From an uncultured Poribacteria bacterium (GTDB taxonomy: Bacteria; Poribacteria; WGA-4E; WGA-3G): DNA of 64,000 nt. This document shows, one piece after another, positions 21,471-32,274 of this stretch. The position numbers and the translations under genes were made by a program. The stretch is from contig OX639973.1 in NCBI GenBank assembly GCA_951828385.1, positions 3,711,200 through 3,775,199 of the forward strand, in the 5' to 3' direction. The notes beneath the pieces are model-generated. The model was not told the DNA's origin, searched no databases, and saw only the letters and a program-made list of their open reading frames with translations. Every line of letters begins with the position of its first letter. Within the stretch, counting starts at the first letter, position 1.

Positions 21471-21620
21471 TTTATTTGTCATTACCTCTCGATTAATTAA
21501 CCGGCATAGCTGCATTTTTATTTTATCTTTATTAAGTATCTAAGAAATCATGATGGCTCAGCTTTAAAACTGATATTAAGGCTGAAAACTCTTGTGCCAT
21601 TTAGTCTAGGACACACGCTC

Positions 21621-23012
21621 ATGCGGCACACCCCCAACGAAATCTGGTCAGAAATACTGGACAACCTCAACGACACAGCACAGCAGGATGTTTATCTTCA
21701 CCAAGCAGTCCCGCTTTCACTCACAGCAGATGCCTTGAAGATAGCTGTACCTTCCGCGTACACACGCGCGCGAATTGAAGAGCGTTTCCGAACTGACATC
21801 CAGCGAGTATTAGCAACACTGATCGGCGCGCAATGTGTATTTACTCTCACGATAGATGAATCTGTGGCTCGCGGCAGCGAGGCCCCTAACGCAATTGAAA
21901 GCGAAGAGATTTCTGGTCAAATGGTTAATCAAAACGAAGTATCTGTTAGCGAACCCTCCTCCTCCGTACCGCAAAACCAGACAGGGCTGAACGCAAGATA
22001 CCGGTTTGATACGTTTGTTGTTGATACCCCCAACCGGATCTGTCACGCAACCGCCTTAGCCGTTTCGGAAAATCCTGGGCGCGACTACAATCCCCTCTTT
22101 ATTTATGGCGGTGTGGGATTGGGGAAAACTCACCTCTTGCATGCAATCGGCAATAGGCTCTCAGCAAACCAACCTCACAAAAAAGTTCTGTACGTTACAT
22201 CAGAAACTTTCATGAATGAATACGTCGAATCTATCGTCAACCGTGGATCAGCGCAAGGATTCCGCACAAAATATCGAACAGCAGACATGCTTTTGATTGA
22301 TGACATACAGTTCTTAGAACGCAAGGAGGGGACACAAGAGGAATTCTTTAACACTTTTAACGACCTCCACATGAACTCAAACCAGATAGTCATGACCAGT
22401 GATCGGACACCAAACAACCTTGAAAACCTTGAAGTACGCCTCCGATCCCGATTTCAATCCGGAATGGTAGCCGAGATCGGTATGCCACAGTACGAAATGC
22501 GGATCGCTATCCTCCGGCAAAAGTGTCAGGACCAAGGATTTGAGAATCTCCCTGATGATGTACTCAGTTACATTGCTGAAGTCATCGAAACGAATATCCG
22601 AGAACTGGAAGGTACGCTTGTGCGGTTGGTTACGCAAGCCACAATACTCAAGGAAAATTTGAGTTTGGATTTCGCCCGACAGGTGCTAAGCGATGTGGGT
22701 GCCCCGTCACCAATGCGAGATCGTAAGACTGCCACATCAAAAGGAATACAAATGGTCGTCGCTGACTACTTTGGGATTGAGGTGGCAGACCTCATCTCTA
22801 TGAAACGAACCAAAGAGTTAGTGCAACCGCGTCAAATTGCCATGTATATGTGCAGAGAATTGACACAAATGTCATATTCAAACATTGCCCAAGCATTTAA
22901 TAGGGAAAATCATACGACTGTTATTCACGCTTGCAAACAGATAGAAAATACAATCGGAAAGAGTGATGAGGAACGGCAAACAATTGTGTTCTTACTTGAT
23001 CAATTCCGATAG
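21621..23012 (+). CDS. dnaA: Chromosomal replication initiator DnaA
   Basis: The ATG at 21621 (463 residues) is preferred over the GTG at 21594 because AGGA lies 9 nt upstream. Domain I begins at NEIWSEILDNL. The AAA+ core has Walker A GGVGLGKTHL (about residue 163) and Walker B LLIDDIQFLE (about 223), with a sensor segment VMTSDRTPNNL. The C-terminal DNA-binding helix-turn-helix reads YSNIAQAFNRENHTTVIHAC; E. coli has GGRDHTTV in this stretch, so the Asp that helps read the box is Asn here. It binds the box cluster in the following 320 bp and loads the helicase. It is followed directly by the origin and then recF, without dnaN between. Confidence 0.95.
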   Translation: MRHTPNEIWSEILDNLNDTAQQDVYLHQAVPLSLTADALKIAVPSAYTRARIEERFRTDIQRVLATLIGAQCVFTLTIDESVARGSEAPNAIESEEISGQMVNQNEVSVSEPSSSVPQNQTGLNARYRFDTFVVDTPNRICHATALAVSENPGRDYNPLFIYGGVGLGKTHLLHAIGNRLSANQPHKKVLYVTSETFMNEYVESIVNRGSAQGFRTKYRTADMLLIDDIQFLERKEGTQEEFFNTFNDLHMNSNQIVMTSDRTPNNLENLEVRLRSRFQSGMVAEIGMPQYEMRIAILRQKCQDQGFENLPDDVLSYIAEVIETNIRELEGTLVRLVTQATILKENLSLDFARQVLSDVGAPSPMRDRKTATSKGIQMVVADYFGIEVADLISMKRTKELVQPRQIAMYMCRELTQMSYSNIAQAFNRENHTTVIHACKQIENTIGKSDEERQTIVFLLDQFR

Positions 23013-23077: not shown

Positions 23078-23336
23078 TGTTGATAACCTGTTGATAACTA
23101 TGTTAAAATACTGTTGATAACTTGTGCATAACTTGTGCATAACTCACCTACTATAAGATTTTGTTGATAACTTGTGCATAACTCGCTGATTTATGCACAA
23201 GTTATCAACAGGGTACTTGTCAGTGATAGCAAGCCTTCAGGTGAGTTATCAACTTATCAACAGCCCCTACTACTACTACTAAAGTACTATATAAATTTAT
23301 ATAGTAATTAGTAGTACAATTAGAAGCTGTTGATAA
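23078..23336. other. oriC: Chromosome replication origin with DnaA boxes, DnaA-trio and AT-rich element
   Basis: About twelve DnaA boxes in 260 bp: TGTTGATAA (23078, 23089, 23112, 23162, 23328), TTGTGCATAA (23122, 23133, 23172) and reverse TTATGCACAA/TTATCAACA (23191, 23202) plus TTATCAACT/TTATCAACA (23246, 23254). A 20-nt unit occurs twice in tandem and once inverted (23191-23210). Last comes the ordered set known from B. subtilis: box pair, GCCCC, five CTA repeats (23267-23281; 3'-GAT on the other strand) and an AT-rich 22-bp palindrome (23285-23306). That is the basal unwinding system: boxes, DnaA-trios, unwinding element. The location between dnaA and recF is also typical. Confidence 0.92.
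23285..23306. repeat. AT-rich 22-bp perfect palindrome (unwinding element)
   Basis: TACTATATAAA with its exact inverse, directly after the five DnaA-trios. All bases but two C and two G are A or T, fitting the duplex that DnaA would melt first. Confidence 0.7.
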
Positions 23337-23396: not shown

Positions 23397-24704
23397 ATGT
23401 TATTAAACCATATCGTCCTACGAAATTTTCGTAATTATATCAATTGCGAAGTGGACTTCTCTAAGCCCGTTAATTTAATCGTCGGCGGGAACGCACAAGG
23501 AAAAACCAGTTTGCTTGAAGCAATCTATTTTCTTTGCACCGCGGAATCTCATCGTGCGACTCATGATGCCGAATTGATTCGGCATCATGAGTCAGGATTC
23601 TACCTAAAAGGGACATTGAGGAACGGCAGTGATGACGTAACATCTCTTGAAGCGATGAAGAAGGCACGCGGACAGTTTAGATTGAAGAAAAATGGTATTC
23701 TCCAGACAAAACGTTCCGAATGGATTGGTCAATTTAACGCCGTGTTTTTTTCACCAGAGTCACTCACGTTAGTGAAAGGCGGCCCTTCAGAAAGGCGACG
23801 GTTCTTAGATCTCCTTATCTCACAGATTGACAGCGAATACTTAAAAAATTTGCAAAAGTACAATCTGGTTCTCAAACAACGAAATGAGTTGCTAAAGCAG
23901 ATTCGTGCAACGTTCGCAAACGCAAAGCAACTGGATGCTTGGGACCAATTGCTGCTTGTACATGGTACCGCAGTTATCATAAGGCGGTTGGAAATTTTTT
24001 ACCAATTGAAAGACCACGCGATCCAAAACTACCAAAAACTCACTGGTGGTTTAGAAAATCTCGCACTGACGTATCGTTCGGCATCGGTGTCAAACGATAC
24101 GTCAATTGACAATATGGCAGGCAGTATTTCAGAAATCACCGGTCTCAACTCGTTAGCGGAGTCTTCAGACGCACCCCACAAGGCTACCCGTGAAGATGAA
24201 GACAAGATAGCCAAACATTTTGGCATATCATTAAATGCTTCCCGCGAGGCAGATTTACAGAGAGGTACAACCTTAGTCGGCCCGCACCGAGACGATTTCC
24301 TCATTGAATTGGAGAGTGAACCCAACGCGTCTATCATTCACCATCATAGTGAAAGCGATCCACCAGCCCCAGGACCCGCAACCGGAACATTTCGAGAGGT
24401 AGCACGATCTTATGGTTCACAAGGGCAACAACGGACTATCGCCTTAGCACTCAAGTTAGCAGAATTAGAATTGATTCGACACCTAACAGGCAGAGACCCG
24501 ATAGTTTTATTGGATGATGTTACTTCAGAGTTAGATGACAAGCGGGTAGGTCATTTATTAGAGGTGCTCCAAAATTTAAGTGCCCAAACTTTCATCACAG
24601 CTACACATGCTGAACCGCTCGTACATCATCTCAATCAACCGAACGTTTTGACGGTAGAGAATGCACAGATTAGTTACGTTACCGAAACTAATGAGTCTTC
24701 TTAA
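23397..24704 (+). CDS. recF: DNA replication/repair protein RecF
   Basis: A 435-residue SMC-like ATPase. It begins LLNHIVLRNFRNY, has Walker A GNAQGKTSLLEAIYF near residues 32-45, the ABC signature as SYGSQGQQRTIALALKLAEL and Walker B LLDDVTSELDD near the C-terminus. RecF (with RecO/RecR) loads RecA on gapped DNA. It is about 65 residues longer than typical RecF; the extra length lies mainly in a central region (NMAGSISEITGLNSL through DEDKIAKH). A perfect 17-bp DNA palindrome is embedded at 23558-23593. The start codon is the only ATG near the fold's N-terminus; no clear Shine-Dalgarno sequence is seen. It follows the origin without dnaN and precedes dciA by 48 nt. Confidence 0.92.
   Translation: MLLNHIVLRNFRNYINCEVDFSKPVNLIVGGNAQGKTSLLEAIYFLCTAESHRATHDAELIRHHESGFYLKGTLRNGSDDVTSLEAMKKARGQFRLKKNGILQTKRSEWIGQFNAVFFSPESLTLVKGGPSERRRFLDLLISQIDSEYLKNLQKYNLVLKQRNELLKQIRATFANAKQLDAWDQLLLVHGTAVIIRRLEIFYQLKDHAIQNYQKLTGGLENLALTYRSASVSNDTSIDNMAGSISEITGLNSLAESSDAPHKATREDEDKIAKHFGISLNASREADLQRGTTLVGPHRDDFLIELESEPNASIIHHHSESDPPAPGPATGTFREVARSYGSQGQQRTIALALKLAELELIRHLTGRDPIVLLDDVTSELDDKRVGHLLEVLQNLSAQTFITATHAEPLVHHLNQPNVLTVENAQISYVTETNESS
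23558..23593. repeat. Perfect 17-bp palindrome inside recF
   Basis: Arms 23558-23574 and 23577-23593 are exact inverse complements around TG. Translation there (ATHDAELIRHHES) keeps the normal RecF spacing, so it does not look like an insert. Confidence 0.75.
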
Positions 24705-24752
24705 CACACCATTATTGATGTGATTCCTAAGTCACACCAACGAGTATATAAA

Positions 24753-25256
24753 ATGCACAAGACCGAAAACCTACGCGACCTCCTCACTGAACTCGCTCGC
24801 TCCCGCGACTTTGAGCCCAAGATGCTTGAGCAGAAAGTCTTTGTCCTCTGGCGCGAACTTCTCGGAACACCCCTGGGAACCAGAACAGTCCCAGTATCGC
24901 TGTCGGATGGTGTTTTGAAAATCTACACGGAATATCCGCCGTTCATAAGAGAATTATTACTCCTTAAACAGAGGATTATAGCAGACCTGAATGCAGAATT
25001 AGGACAACCTGTTCTTACAGATCTCCGGATAGAGTTACGCCAAGCGCATAAAGCAACATCTCATCACACCAAACGTCCCTCCACCCACCCAAAAATCTCA
25101 AAGCCAACGGCATCAACGCCTCGCCTAAATAATGTTCGTACACCAACCCCCAAAGAATCAGAACAAATTGAGCAAGCAATAGCTGATGTGGCGGATACTG
25201 ATTTAAAAATTTCTTTGCGGCAATTATTCATGACACAAAGCAAAGAAAAGTCTTGA
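24753..25256 (+). CDS. dciA: DUF721/DciA-like helicase-operator protein
   Basis: The start is taken as ATG 24753 (167 residues); a GTG at 24720 is also in frame. The core LRDLLTELARSRDFEPKM, FVLWRELLGTPLGTRTVPVSL, VLKIYTEYPPFIRELLLLK and LTDLRIEL fits DUF721, whose characterised members (DciA) help load the DnaB helicase where DnaC/DnaI is absent. The second half is a disordered, Thr/Pro/Lys-rich linker ending in a short helix (EQAIADVADTDLKISLRQLF). It follows recF by 48 nt, as is common for this family near origins. The stop codon overlaps a TTGACA promoter for the next gene. Confidence 0.8.
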   Translation: MHKTENLRDLLTELARSRDFEPKMLEQKVFVLWRELLGTPLGTRTVPVSLSDGVLKIYTEYPPFIRELLLLKQRIIADLNAELGQPVLTDLRIELRQAHKATSHHTKRPSTHPKISKPTASTPRLNNVRTPTPKESEQIEQAIADVADTDLKISLRQLFMTQSKEKS

Positions 25257-25421: not shown

Positions 25422-25841
25422 ATGCCTCTCAAAATCGCTAACAAAAAGCGTGATTACCGAACAACGCAGAAAACAATCTATAGTTGTCAATATCACGTGA
25501 TTTGGTGTACCAAGTATCGTCGTAAGGTTTTAGACACACAGATACAAGGGCGTCTAAAACAACTCATACGAGAAAAACAAAACGAATATGACTATCAAAT
25601 CAGAGAAGTTGAAACTCAACCTGAACATGTCCATTTACTGATAGAAATACCGCCGACACATTCTGTTGATAAAATCGTTGGCAAAATCAAAGCCTATACC
25701 GCTAAAGTTTTGCGAGAAGAATACCCGTCCCTGAAAAGTCGTTTGCCGTCTTTGTGGACACGTTCAAAATTTGTAAGCTCCTGTGGTGGCGTAACTCTTG
25801 AAATCATAAAAGATTATATTGAAGGTCAAAGCGGACAATGA
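25422..25841 (+). CDS. tnpA: IS200/IS605 transposase TnpA (Y1 HUH)
   Basis: A 139-residue single-strand transposase. It has the HUH metal-binding motif EHVHLLI (His69 and His71) and the nucleophile Tyr132 in KDYIEGQ, the single active-site tyrosine of the Y1 class. YHVIWCTKYRRKVL near the start is a family hallmark. It cuts and joins the single-stranded hairpin ends during peel-and-paste transposition. It starts after AAAGG and overlaps tnpB by 4 nt. Length is that of a complete protein. Confidence 0.95.
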   Translation: MPLKIANKKRDYRTTQKTIYSCQYHVIWCTKYRRKVLDTQIQGRLKQLIREKQNEYDYQIREVETQPEHVHLLIEIPPTHSVDKIVGKIKAYTAKVLREEYPSLKSRLPSLWTRSKFVSSCGGVTLEIIKDYIEGQSGQ

Positions 25842-26950
25842 GAAAAGCACAGAAGTTCAAACTTCAGAATCAATCTAACATCATCAAGATTGGCAATATG
25901 CTTGACGATATGTGGCAGATACACCTGCATATCATGCTTTTGCAGCGTAGGTATTATCGCATGTTCGGTAAAAACCCGTCCGCATCTCGGATAAACAAAC
26001 ATATTGCGAAACTCAAAAAGCGGACAAAACCGCATTGGGCAAACTTGCCGAGTCAAGTTGTGCAAGACGTTGTGTTACGTTATGGCAAATCACAGGACGC
26101 TTTTTTTCAGAACATAGAAGACCGCAAAGCAGGTTTGACGACCCGTAAAGTGGGTAGACCGAAAATCAAACCGCGTCATAAATATAGTTCTATGACGTTC
26201 ACACAAGCGGGCTACACACTTGAAAACAATCGTATCAAAATCAACTGTATAGATACATGGTTCTCCTTCCACAAACACCGTGAAATCAAAGGGACAATCA
26301 AGACGATCACACTCAAACGGGACAGGTGCGGTGATTATTGGCTATGCTTTTCGTGCGAGAATGTTGACGATTCCGAACCGAAACCCAAGACGGGTAAGAG
26401 CGCAGGGTTTGATTACGGAAACAAAACATTCCTTACAAGCGACGAAGGCACTCAGATAGAATCCCCGCAGTTTTTCAAACAATCCCTGAAAACGTTGCGA
26501 TCCCTGAGCAAAGCCCTGAGTCGTAAAGTCAAAGGTTCTAACAACTATTATCGTGCGTGTCGTGCTTTGGCAAGGCACCACAGAAAAGTCACCCGACAAA
26601 GAGAAGATTGGCAATGGAAACTTGCCACCCAACTTTGCACGGAGTTTGATACGCTCTGTTTTGAAACACTGAACCTTGACGGTATGAAACGCCTCTGGGG
26701 ACGCAAAGTTTCTGACCATGCCTTCTACCAATTTCTGCAGATATTGGAACAGAAGTGTGCGAAACATGGGAAAAAACTTGTGAAAATCAGTCAATGGACA
26801 GCAACAACAAAACCGTGCAGTGATTGTGGATACCCTAATCAAGATATCTCTCTTTCTGATAGACAGTGGACATGTCCCGAATGTGGCTCACACCACGATA
26901 GAGACGTAAACGCTGCTATCAATATCAAACGGGCGGGCTTGGCCGCCTAA
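25838..26950 (+). CDS. tnpB: IS605 TnpB RNA-guided nuclease
   Basis: A 370-residue TnpB, the ancestor-type relative of Cas12. It has a RuvC-like nuclease with catalytic Asp192 (SAGFDYGN), Glu276 (CFETLNL) and Asp356 (DRDVNAA), and a zinc ribbon (CSDCGYP ... CPECGSH) placed between the last two. All residues expected for cleavage are present. Characterised TnpB proteins use an omegaRNA from the element's right end to cut donor sites and retain the transposon. It starts inside tnpA (ATGA overlap). Structured DNA follows to 27041. Confidence 0.95.
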   Translation: MRKAQKFKLQNQSNIIKIGNMLDDMWQIHLHIMLLQRRYYRMFGKNPSASRINKHIAKLKKRTKPHWANLPSQVVQDVVLRYGKSQDAFFQNIEDRKAGLTTRKVGRPKIKPRHKYSSMTFTQAGYTLENNRIKINCIDTWFSFHKHREIKGTIKTITLKRDRCGDYWLCFSCENVDDSEPKPKTGKSAGFDYGNKTFLTSDEGTQIESPQFFKQSLKTLRSLSKALSRKVKGSNNYYRACRALARHHRKVTRQREDWQWKLATQLCTEFDTLCFETLNLDGMKRLWGRKVSDHAFYQFLQILEQKCAKHGKKLVKISQWTATTKPCSDCGYPNQDISLSDRQWTCPECGSHHDRDVNAAINIKRAGLAA

Positions 26951-29618
<2,668 letters not shown>

Positions 29619-29739: not shown

Positions 29740-32274
29740 ATGGAAAACATCCAAGAACGCAACATAGAAAATGAACTGAAAACGTCGTACCTTACCTACG
29801 CGATGAGTGTCAATACCAATCGCGCGATACCTGATGTACGTGACGGTCTCAAACCCAGCACACGTCGGATTATCTATGCTATGGGAGAGATAAATCTCAC
29901 CGCGAACCGGCCCTACGACAAATGTGCCGCTGTCGTTGGGGAGGTGATGAAGAACTTTCATCCACATGGCGACGGCCCGATTTACGGCACTCTTGTCGGT
30001 ATGGCGCAACCGTTTAATATGCGCTACCTGCTCATAGATGGGCAAGGGAACTTCGGTAGTATCGACGATGATCCGCCTGGCGCGATGCGCTACACGGAAT
30101 GTCGGCTTACCGCGATTGCCGAGGAGATGCTCACTGATATTGAAAAACAGGTTGTTGATTTTCAACCGAATTACAAGGAATCCCTCGAAGAACCGACAGT
30201 CCTTCCGGGTCTTCTCCCGAACTTGCTTGTCAATGGCACGACAGGTATCGGTGTTGGTTACCTCACCCGTATACCACCACATAATCTAAGTGAAGTCATT
30301 GATGCACTGCTCTGCAAACTCTCTGATCCCGATGCTACTTCAGAAGTGCTTATGGAACACATCCTCGGTCCCGATTTCCCAACTGCGGGAATGATCGTAG
30401 GGACGCAGGGCATCAAGGATATGTACGCCACTGGGCGGGGAAGTATGACTGTCCGTGCCAAAGCCGTCATAGAGAGAATTGCTACAGCGGGTAAATCGGA
30501 AACTGAGCAGGAACAGATCATCATAACTGAAATTCCTTATCAGGTAAAGAAAAATCAGTTACTTGAGCGGATGTATCAATTGGTTGTCAACAAAACCATC
30601 ACTGGCATTAGGGATATACGCGATGAGTCAGACAAAGATATCCGCATTGTCATAGAACTCAAGCGTGGTGAAATCGCTCAGGTTATTTTAAATCAGTTGT
30701 ATAAGCATACACAGATGCAAACGAACTTCAGTGCGAGCCTTCTGTGTCTTGTAGATGGGCTCCCGAAAGTTCTAACGCTTGAGGAGATTCTGCGCCACTA
30801 TCTTGAGCATCGACGCGATGTGGTTCGCCGACGGACACAATTTGAACTGGACCGTGCCGAGCGAAGAAATCACATTCTTGAAGGGTATCTCTTAGCACTG
30901 CAAAACCTTGAGGCAATTATAGAACTTGTCCAAACTGCTGAATCCCCGCAAGCCGCGGAGCAAGAACTTCGGGATGCATACCAACTCAGCGAGCAGCAAG
31001 CGAGAGAAATTCTCACGATGACGCTCCGCCAGTTGACAGGTCTTGAGCGCCAGCGTATCCACGATGAATACACGGAAATATTAGATCGTATTGCCGAGTT
31101 TCGCGCGATCCTTGCCAGTGAAACGTTGATAACAGATATAATCCGAACAGAGCTCGGAACTCTCAGGGAAACGTACGGCGATGAGCGACGAACCGAAATT
31201 ACGAGCGAAATCAAAGAATTTGAAGTGGAAGACCTTATCGCTGATGAAGAGATGGTCGTCACGCTATCGCATGCCGGTTACATCAAACGGTTACCTATGG
31301 ATACCTATCGTAAACAGCATCGCGGTGGCGTTGGGATTAAGGGAGCTACAACAAAGGATGGCGACTTTTTGGAGCATATCTTTGTTGCTACTGCGCACCA
31401 AAACATTTTGTTTTTCACAGATTTGGGCAAATGTTATACGTTAAAAGTCCACCAAATTCCTGAAGCGCGTCGCCAATCCGCCGGACGTGCAGTTGTTAAT
31501 CTACTCAAGTTGGCGCAAAACGAGAACATTACCGCTTATGTTACCGTATATCTGAAAGCAGGCAGCCAAGGAGCTGAGGGCACTGATGCCGGCGAGGTTA
31601 CAGCGAATAAATTTGTCTTTATGGCGACACAACAAGGCATTGTCAAAAAGACAGAACTCGCCAGTTTTGAGAACACGTTGTCGAATGGGATTATCGCTGT
31701 TAAACTTGATGATGGTGACAAACTCATTGGCGCGCAAGTAACAGAAGGCACTTCCGATGTCATCCTTGTTACTCACAAAGGTACTGCCATTCGGTTTAAT
31801 GAGAAAGATGTCAGATCCCTTGGGCGCAATACGCGCGGGGTCCGTGGCATAGAACTCGGTGCTGAGGACTTTGTAGCACAAATGGTTATTGTTAACGGCG
31901 AGGGGACTGAAGCGGAAGAAACCGAACAAAAGACTGCTAAGGAAGATGACACCTTGTTGATTGTCACGGAAAACGGGTATGGCAAGCGTACGGCTGTCTC
32001 TGCTTATCGCTCCCAAAAACGCGGTGGGAAAGGTATCATCGCCATCGGAAAGTCAACACGGAACGGTGCAGTTGTCGCTGCAAAACGCGTCGCAGATATT
32101 GATGAACTCGTTCTCATTAGTTCAAATGGGTATGTTACCCGAACAGCTGTCGGCGACATTCGGCGTATCGGACGCAATACCCAAGGGGTGCGCATCATGG
32201 CACTTCAAGCCGACGAGACACTTGTTGATGCCGCTAAAATTGAACTTTCATCTTCTCTGCTTGAAGATGCGTAG
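29740..32274 (+). CDS. gyrA: DNA gyrase subunit A
   Basis: An 844-residue type IIA topoisomerase subunit that cuts and rejoins DNA. The breakage-reunion domain starts YLTYAMSVNTNRAIPDVRDGLKP; the active tyrosine is Tyr118 in AMRYTE. A GyrA-box (QKRGGKG) in the C-terminal pinwheel identifies it as gyrase rather than topoisomerase IV. The quinolone-determining stretch reads HPHGDGPIYG where E. coli has HPHGDSAVYD, so Gly79 and Gly83 stand where Ser83 and Asp87 are expected. It follows gyrB by 121 nt of hairpin repeat, with no visible Shine-Dalgarno sequence. ATG 29740 gives the usual N-terminus. Confidence 0.95.
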   Translation: MENIQERNIENELKTSYLTYAMSVNTNRAIPDVRDGLKPSTRRIIYAMGEINLTANRPYDKCAAVVGEVMKNFHPHGDGPIYGTLVGMAQPFNMRYLLIDGQGNFGSIDDDPPGAMRYTECRLTAIAEEMLTDIEKQVVDFQPNYKESLEEPTVLPGLLPNLLVNGTTGIGVGYLTRIPPHNLSEVIDALLCKLSDPDATSEVLMEHILGPDFPTAGMIVGTQGIKDMYATGRGSMTVRAKAVIERIATAGKSETEQEQIIITEIPYQVKKNQLLERMYQLVVNKTITGIRDIRDESDKDIRIVIELKRGEIAQVILNQLYKHTQMQTNFSASLLCLVDGLPKVLTLEEILRHYLEHRRDVVRRRTQFELDRAERRNHILEGYLLALQNLEAIIELVQTAESPQAAEQELRDAYQLSEQQAREILTMTLRQLTGLERQRIHDEYTEILDRIAEFRAILASETLITDIIRTELGTLRETYGDERRTEITSEIKEFEVEDLIADEEMVVTLSHAGYIKRLPMDTYRKQHRGGVGIKGATTKDGDFLEHIFVATAHQNILFFTDLGKCYTLKVHQIPEARRQSAGRAVVNLLKLAQNENITAYVTVYLKAGSQGAEGTDAGEVTANKFVFMATQQGIVKKTELASFENTLSNGIIAVKLDDGDKLIGAQVTEGTSDVILVTHKGTAIRFNEKDVRSLGRNTRGVRGIELGAEDFVAQMVIVNGEGTEAEETEQKTAKEDDTLLIVTENGYGKRTAVSAYRSQKRGGKGIIAIGKSTRNGAVVAAKRVADIDELVLISSNGYVTRTAVGDIRRIGRNTQGVRIMALQADETLVDAAKIELSSSLLEDA

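Follow-up and report, generated by a model that had tools for sequence, protein, structure and literature searches.

The intergenic region between dnaA and recF in this Poribacteria genome is very probably the chromosomal replication origin (oriC), with a working basal unwinding system (BUS) in its left arm. This identification follows from the position of the site between dnaA and recF with dciA and gyrBA behind it, from its uniqueness in the genome and from its conservation across the phylum. An origin with a BUS was expected at this place; the new part is a candidate second DnaA-trio array that faces the BUS, together with an apparently recoded recognition between DnaA and its boxes. A literature search, with most subscription journals outside its reach, returned no paper on Poribacteria origins, on facing BUSs or on covariation between Asp433 and the box. 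We tentatively combine the new elements in one reading, to which we give somewhat less than an even chance: a symmetric origin with facing BUSs, in which each strand would carry a DnaA oligomer and DnaA would assign the second helicase without DnaD, and a stepwise recoding of the boxes, beginning with Asn for Asp433 and A for C at position 6 and followed by Arg for Thr435 and TTATTAACA/TTATTATCA boxes.

Organization of the dnaA-recF region

Poribacteria are bacteria of the sponge-symbiont type. The window (the whole stretch of 64,000 nt that was analysed) corresponds to positions 3,711,200 to 3,775,199 of a single-contig genome of 6,656,312 bp, and its DnaA shares 95% identity with Candidatus Poribacteria sequences. 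The gene order is dnaA (21594-23012, + strand; Pfam Bac_DnaA, 3.5e-65, and Bac_DnaA_C, 1.1e-28; aligned to 8btg), the oriC region, recF (23397-24704, +; Pfam SMC_N, 1.2e-21; traced by tblastn in relatives), dciA (24720-25256, +; a helicase loader of the DciA/DUF721 family; Pfam DciA, 8.6e-14), an IS200/IS605 element, gyrB (27042-29618, +) and gyrA (29740-32274, +). The gap between dnaA and recF measures 384 nt, and dnaN does not lie between them.

The gap contains 11 exact DnaA boxes, TTATCAACA or TTATGCACA, which differ from the canonical TTATCCACA. Seven form a left-pointing array on the - strand (23078, 23089, 23112, 23123, 23134, 23162 and 23173; array 23078-23181) that we also observed in relatives, and four of its six neighbouring box pairs keep an 11-nt step. 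Two boxes point right (23191 and 23202, +; 23191-23210), and the others start at 23254 (+) and 23328 (-). With one weaker box, TTATCAACT at 23246 (+), the total at 23078-23336 is 12, as the original prediction of about twelve had it. The same prediction described a box unit of 20 nt occurring twice direct and once inverted, and all three copies of this two-box unit could be located: the direct ones at 23111-23131 and 23162-23181, and the inverted one at 23191-23211, which is 100% complementary over 21 nt. Only 3 further exact matches are found in the remaining 63.6 kb of the window. An 800-kb sample of the same genome contained 32 exact boxes, which amounts to an expectation of 0.015 in 384 bp, and nowhere in that sample did two of them fall within 260 nt. 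The cluster thus stands far above background beside replication genes, as is characteristic of an oriC. In addition, the double-trio motif CTACTACTACTA..TTAGTA occurs a single time in the 6.66-Mb genome, at this site, and the origin layout is conserved in most readable loci of the phylum.

Two further features of the cluster were observed. Within each species, the ~11 boxes share the same two central bases (CA, CC or GC; window and origins L002-L029), a pattern resembling concerted evolution. Between the box cluster and the BUS lies a box-free spacer of the TCAATGG..CAAGGGTTTAAGCGAG type (23211-23245), which looks conserved to class level and may be a site for a bending, regulatory or other origin protein.

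The left arm is a BUS

The left arm consists of a right-pointing pair of boxes, TTATCAACT and TTATCAACA, overlapping by 1 nt (23246-23262, +; boxes at 23246 and 23254), a GC-rich linker, GCCC (23263-23266, +), and five CTA repeats on the + strand, which correspond to five perfect 3'-GAT-5' DnaA-trios on the - strand (23267-23281). It is followed by an AT-rich palindrome (23282-23309, 93%), the presumed unwinding element. The box pair, the five trios and the palindrome lie as originally predicted; of the predicted GCCCC, the linker accounts for GCCC, and the fifth C already belongs to the first CTA, as its first base. A BUS has been defined as a box followed within <=16 bp by >=3 NAN trios (PMC8287927), and the left arm, with its 4-nt linker and five trios, conforms to this rule. 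A run of at least five trios arises by chance with p=0.009 when the 65 nt between the inner facing boxes are shuffled. The box pair, CCCC and CTA trios are kept across the phylum, and the middle T of the left trios is invariant in 28 relatives while the outer bases change. A BUS was to be expected here, since the survey of Pelliciari et al. 2021 (PMC8287927) predicted BUS sequences in 85% of the bacterial origins it covered (1755 of 2070).

Asn208 of the window DnaA corresponds to the trio reader Asn187 of B. subtilis and is Asn in 29/29 DnaAs; at the positions of the single-stranded-DNA-binding residues I190 and I193 of B. subtilis, V211 is found in 28/29 (I in one) and I214 in 29/29. The assignment of the left arm as a BUS is well supported. 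This arm resembles the B. subtilis BUS (incC, DnaA boxes 6/7 and DnaA-trios): both have a box pair followed by a short linker rich in GC, five 3'-GAT-5' trios and an AT-rich stretch, and the DnaA of both carries the trio-reading Asn (PMC10721633). The Poribacteria origin differs in adding a conserved inverted box with degenerate facing trios, in the downstream gene (recF, not dnaN), in its TTATCAACA/TTATGCACA boxes and in the lack of a DnaD-family match. The proposed equality with the B. subtilis system therefore held for the order of the left arm, which is exact, and for the conserved Asn208, but it left out the facing second array and the altered DnaA/box recognition.

A candidate second trio array faces the BUS

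Box 23328 begins an inverted second array that was absent from the original prediction. The box (TTATCAACA on the - strand, 23328-23336) faces the left BUS and is followed by the linker AAGC (23324-23327; 3-4 nt in relatives) and by a degenerate trio array on the + strand, AAT TAG TAG TAC AAT TAG (23306-23323). Read on the other strand from the box, the arm is TTATCAACA-GCTT-CTA-ATT-GTA-CTA-CTA-ATT. It thus comprises an exact box, a 4-nt linker and six NAN trios with a middle A in all six (+ strand), in agreement with the BUS rule, and it faces the left BUS across the AT palindrome. Both arms accordingly fit the rule by which the published BUS set was predicted (PMC8287927); the program used there keeps a single best BUS per origin, and we saw no facing pair mentioned in the main text of that paper.

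We counted a facing pair where each side carried >=4 trios. In the genus of the window and its neighbours, 20 of 28 informative loci had such a pair, the boxes lying 60-68 nt apart, and so did 2 more loci of the phylum; none was found in 52 loci of other phyla or in the 800-kb sample of the window's genome. In shuffled 65-nt sequences, a right run of at least six trios occurred with p=0.012, and both runs together with p=1e-4. The 18 columns of the right array underwent 2.4 changes per site on the DnaA tree, compared to 5.2 at third codon positions of dnaA (p<5e-5), and the sequence is therefore constrained. At the outermost right trio, the middle base changes from A to C only; A and C are the bases accepted by the trio pocket, which needs an amino group (PMC10721633). 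Judging from these sequence patterns, the right array is a candidate DnaA loading site, with a nearly even chance of being one.

The main alternative is that the BUS is one-sided, the right sequence serving for the entry of helicase, SSB or DciA or binding a different protein, and the right box being simply an additional DnaA box. We regard this as a serious alternative, with close to an even probability of its own. A one-sided BUS is the published norm (PMC8287927), and the right array is degenerate and of modest significance when taken alone (per-species p ~0.1, marginal in AT-rich DNA). Moreover, a parsimony phase test on all 18 right-arm columns was not significant (p=0.17), since the flanks TTAG and TAG do not vary in any phase. 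Several relatives keep the right array after decay of the right box (L011, L012, L018, L027 and most of genus g4), and a clear right array is missing in several deeper lineages (L181, L183, L185 and L186). On the other hand, the middle A of the right array persists although the outer bases vary: within trios 3-5, the variable ones, it changed 1, 2 and 1 times, whereas the remaining bases changed 0-8 times. Facing pairs likewise keep a fixed register of 3-4 nt to the box. Furthermore, distant relatives whose sequences cannot be aligned carry mirrored arrays of other make-up, (CTT)4 in L173, (CTA)3 in L179 and (CTA)4 in L184, which argues for the trio format and against pairing between the arms.

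Such pairing, in which a hairpin or cruciform would conserve the right arm through its complementarity to the left, appears very unlikely. The two arms do form an inverted repeat (23254-23282 and 23308-23336, 83% complementary), and those of L184 are mirrored nearly perfectly. However, the right array is free at its outer positions while the left hardly changes, and the right CTT array of L173 is not complementary to its left CTA array; no covariation was seen, and we rejected pairing of the arms. A recF promoter over the right arm was also considered and discarded, no promoter-like match being found there on the + strand.

Facing BUSs were also searched for in other phyla with the exact pattern TTATCCACA N2-6 CTACTA. 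Matches were near chance (11/299 Bacillota-side genomes, 0/16 and 1/68), so that the survey says little about the frequency of facing BUSs elsewhere. In one of the Bacillota-side matches, L199, a BUS is faced by an inverted box, TTGTCCACA, and facing arrangements may thus exist outside Poribacteria.

Proposed opening and helicase loading

All binding and opening steps described next are inferred, and the part played by the second array most of all. DnaA would fill the box cluster and, from the right-pointing pair at 23246/23254, reach past GCCC to the minus strand, where it would bind the 3'-GAT-5' trios in single-stranded form; from there it would melt the AT-rich palindrome, as in the B. subtilis BUS. 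On the opposite side, the inverted box at 23328 and the degenerate trios may seat a second DnaA oligomer, this one on the plus strand. The two strands of the bubble would in that case each present a DnaA end, at which DciA/DnaB could be loaded to serve one fork. Starting from these ends and travelling 5' to 3', the two helicases would diverge.

Helicase loading by DnaA is taken to begin where the oligomer ends on the strand to which it is bound, and in Bacillota the second strand is proposed to be served by DnaD on the DRE (PMC10201434). The papers on the BUS and the DRE pose as a question how the second strand receives a helicase without DnaD (PMC10201434, PMC10721633). No member of the DnaD/DnaB family (DnaB_2, PF07261) was detected in 21 genomes (the window's own and 20 relatives), with the B. 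subtilis control detected; dciA lies two genes downstream of dnaA and is present in a single copy in the genome. The right array resembles the DRE, located opposite the trios (PMC10201434), in that both are specific to one strand and both are proposed to supply the second strand with a loader. The DRE needs DnaD, which was not found here, whereas the Poribacteria element forms an array of its own to the side of the first and would be readable by DnaA itself. The conserved facing array is thus a direct and testable candidate for second-strand helicase loading without DnaD.

Position relative to the GC skew

GC skew was computed from 83 sampled 20-kb blocks, with ~83 kb between samples. The cumulative minimum fell at 3.672 Mb, ~62 kb from oriC at 3.734 Mb at this sample spacing and with weak amplitude; it is the nearest large-scale skew sample to the left of the site. 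The best origin-terminus fit placed the origin at 3.68 Mb, and the blocks within 1 Mb differed between the two sides (p=0.005). The skew is weak genome-wide, with a best two-arm fit of z 2.5, below the permutation 95% limit of 3.3, and there is no sharp switch within the window. The skew minimum, named in the original prediction as a check, thus lies ~60 kb from the site in the sampled data, on a skew that is weak and not sharp. DnaA boxes regulate dnaA in other bacteria too, and together with the weak skew this could speak for a dnaA/recF regulatory region with DnaA autoregulation instead of an active origin, which we consider scarcely credible given the box density, the BUS layout, the uniqueness of the site, its position at the sampled skew minimum and the lack of a promoter-like + strand match over the right arm.

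Covariation between DnaA and its boxes

Asp433 of E. coli DnaA has been described as highly conserved in all bacterial classes and as a contact to bases of the box (PMC8235120). The corresponding residue of the window DnaA, which takes part in box recognition, is Asn439. We compared residue and box in the window and in dnaA loci L002-L029 and L153-L186. Among 54 Poribacteria loci with >=3 boxes, A at box position 6 made up on average 0.6% of boxes in loci with Asp (n=19) and 69% in loci with Asn (n=35); the contact of Asp433 is assigned in PMC8235120 to box position 7, and the covariation here concerns position 6. The contrast is present even between sister species: L014 has Asn and A at position 6 in 8/10 boxes, whereas L017 has Asp and C in 10/10. 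L026 carries Asn, yet has C at position 6 in all boxes except one, which suggests that Asn is permissive at this position. A further change was observed in genus g4, a sister genus, in which Thr435 is replaced by Arg (NHRT): TTATTAACA occurs in 9/9 loci with Arg and in 0/28 with Thr, and the g4 species with Arg435 use TTATTATCA boxes as well. Nearly all pairings of residue and box agree; with only 2-4 independent switches, a sign test cannot reach 0.05. From these comparisons, the code by which DnaA reads its boxes appears to have changed visibly together with its target sites.

Lineage-specific boxes of Epsilonproteobacteria (PMC5043019) and Thermotoga maritima (PMC10316083) likewise depart from TTATCCACA, along with changes in the DNA-reading helix. 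In contrast to these, the switch in Poribacteria can be traced within one family and is tied to the positions of Asp433 and Thr435. Poribacteria provide a natural series of DnaA/DnaA-box pairs in graded steps, useful for work on initiator specificity, where the box changes along with a residue that has been called highly conserved (PMC8235120).

We also observed a second DnaA-like gene in order-level relatives (G013-G023; L187-L191). It encodes a protein of ~396 aa, 37-40% identical, that misses the N-terminal domain and has His or Ser at the Asp433 position, and few or no DnaA boxes surround it. Two other features lie near the origin of the window: the IS200/IS605 element (tnpA and tnpB, 25422-26950), an insertion a few kb away that separates dciA from gyrB, and a perfect 17-nt inverted repeat with a 2-nt loop within recF (23558-23593).
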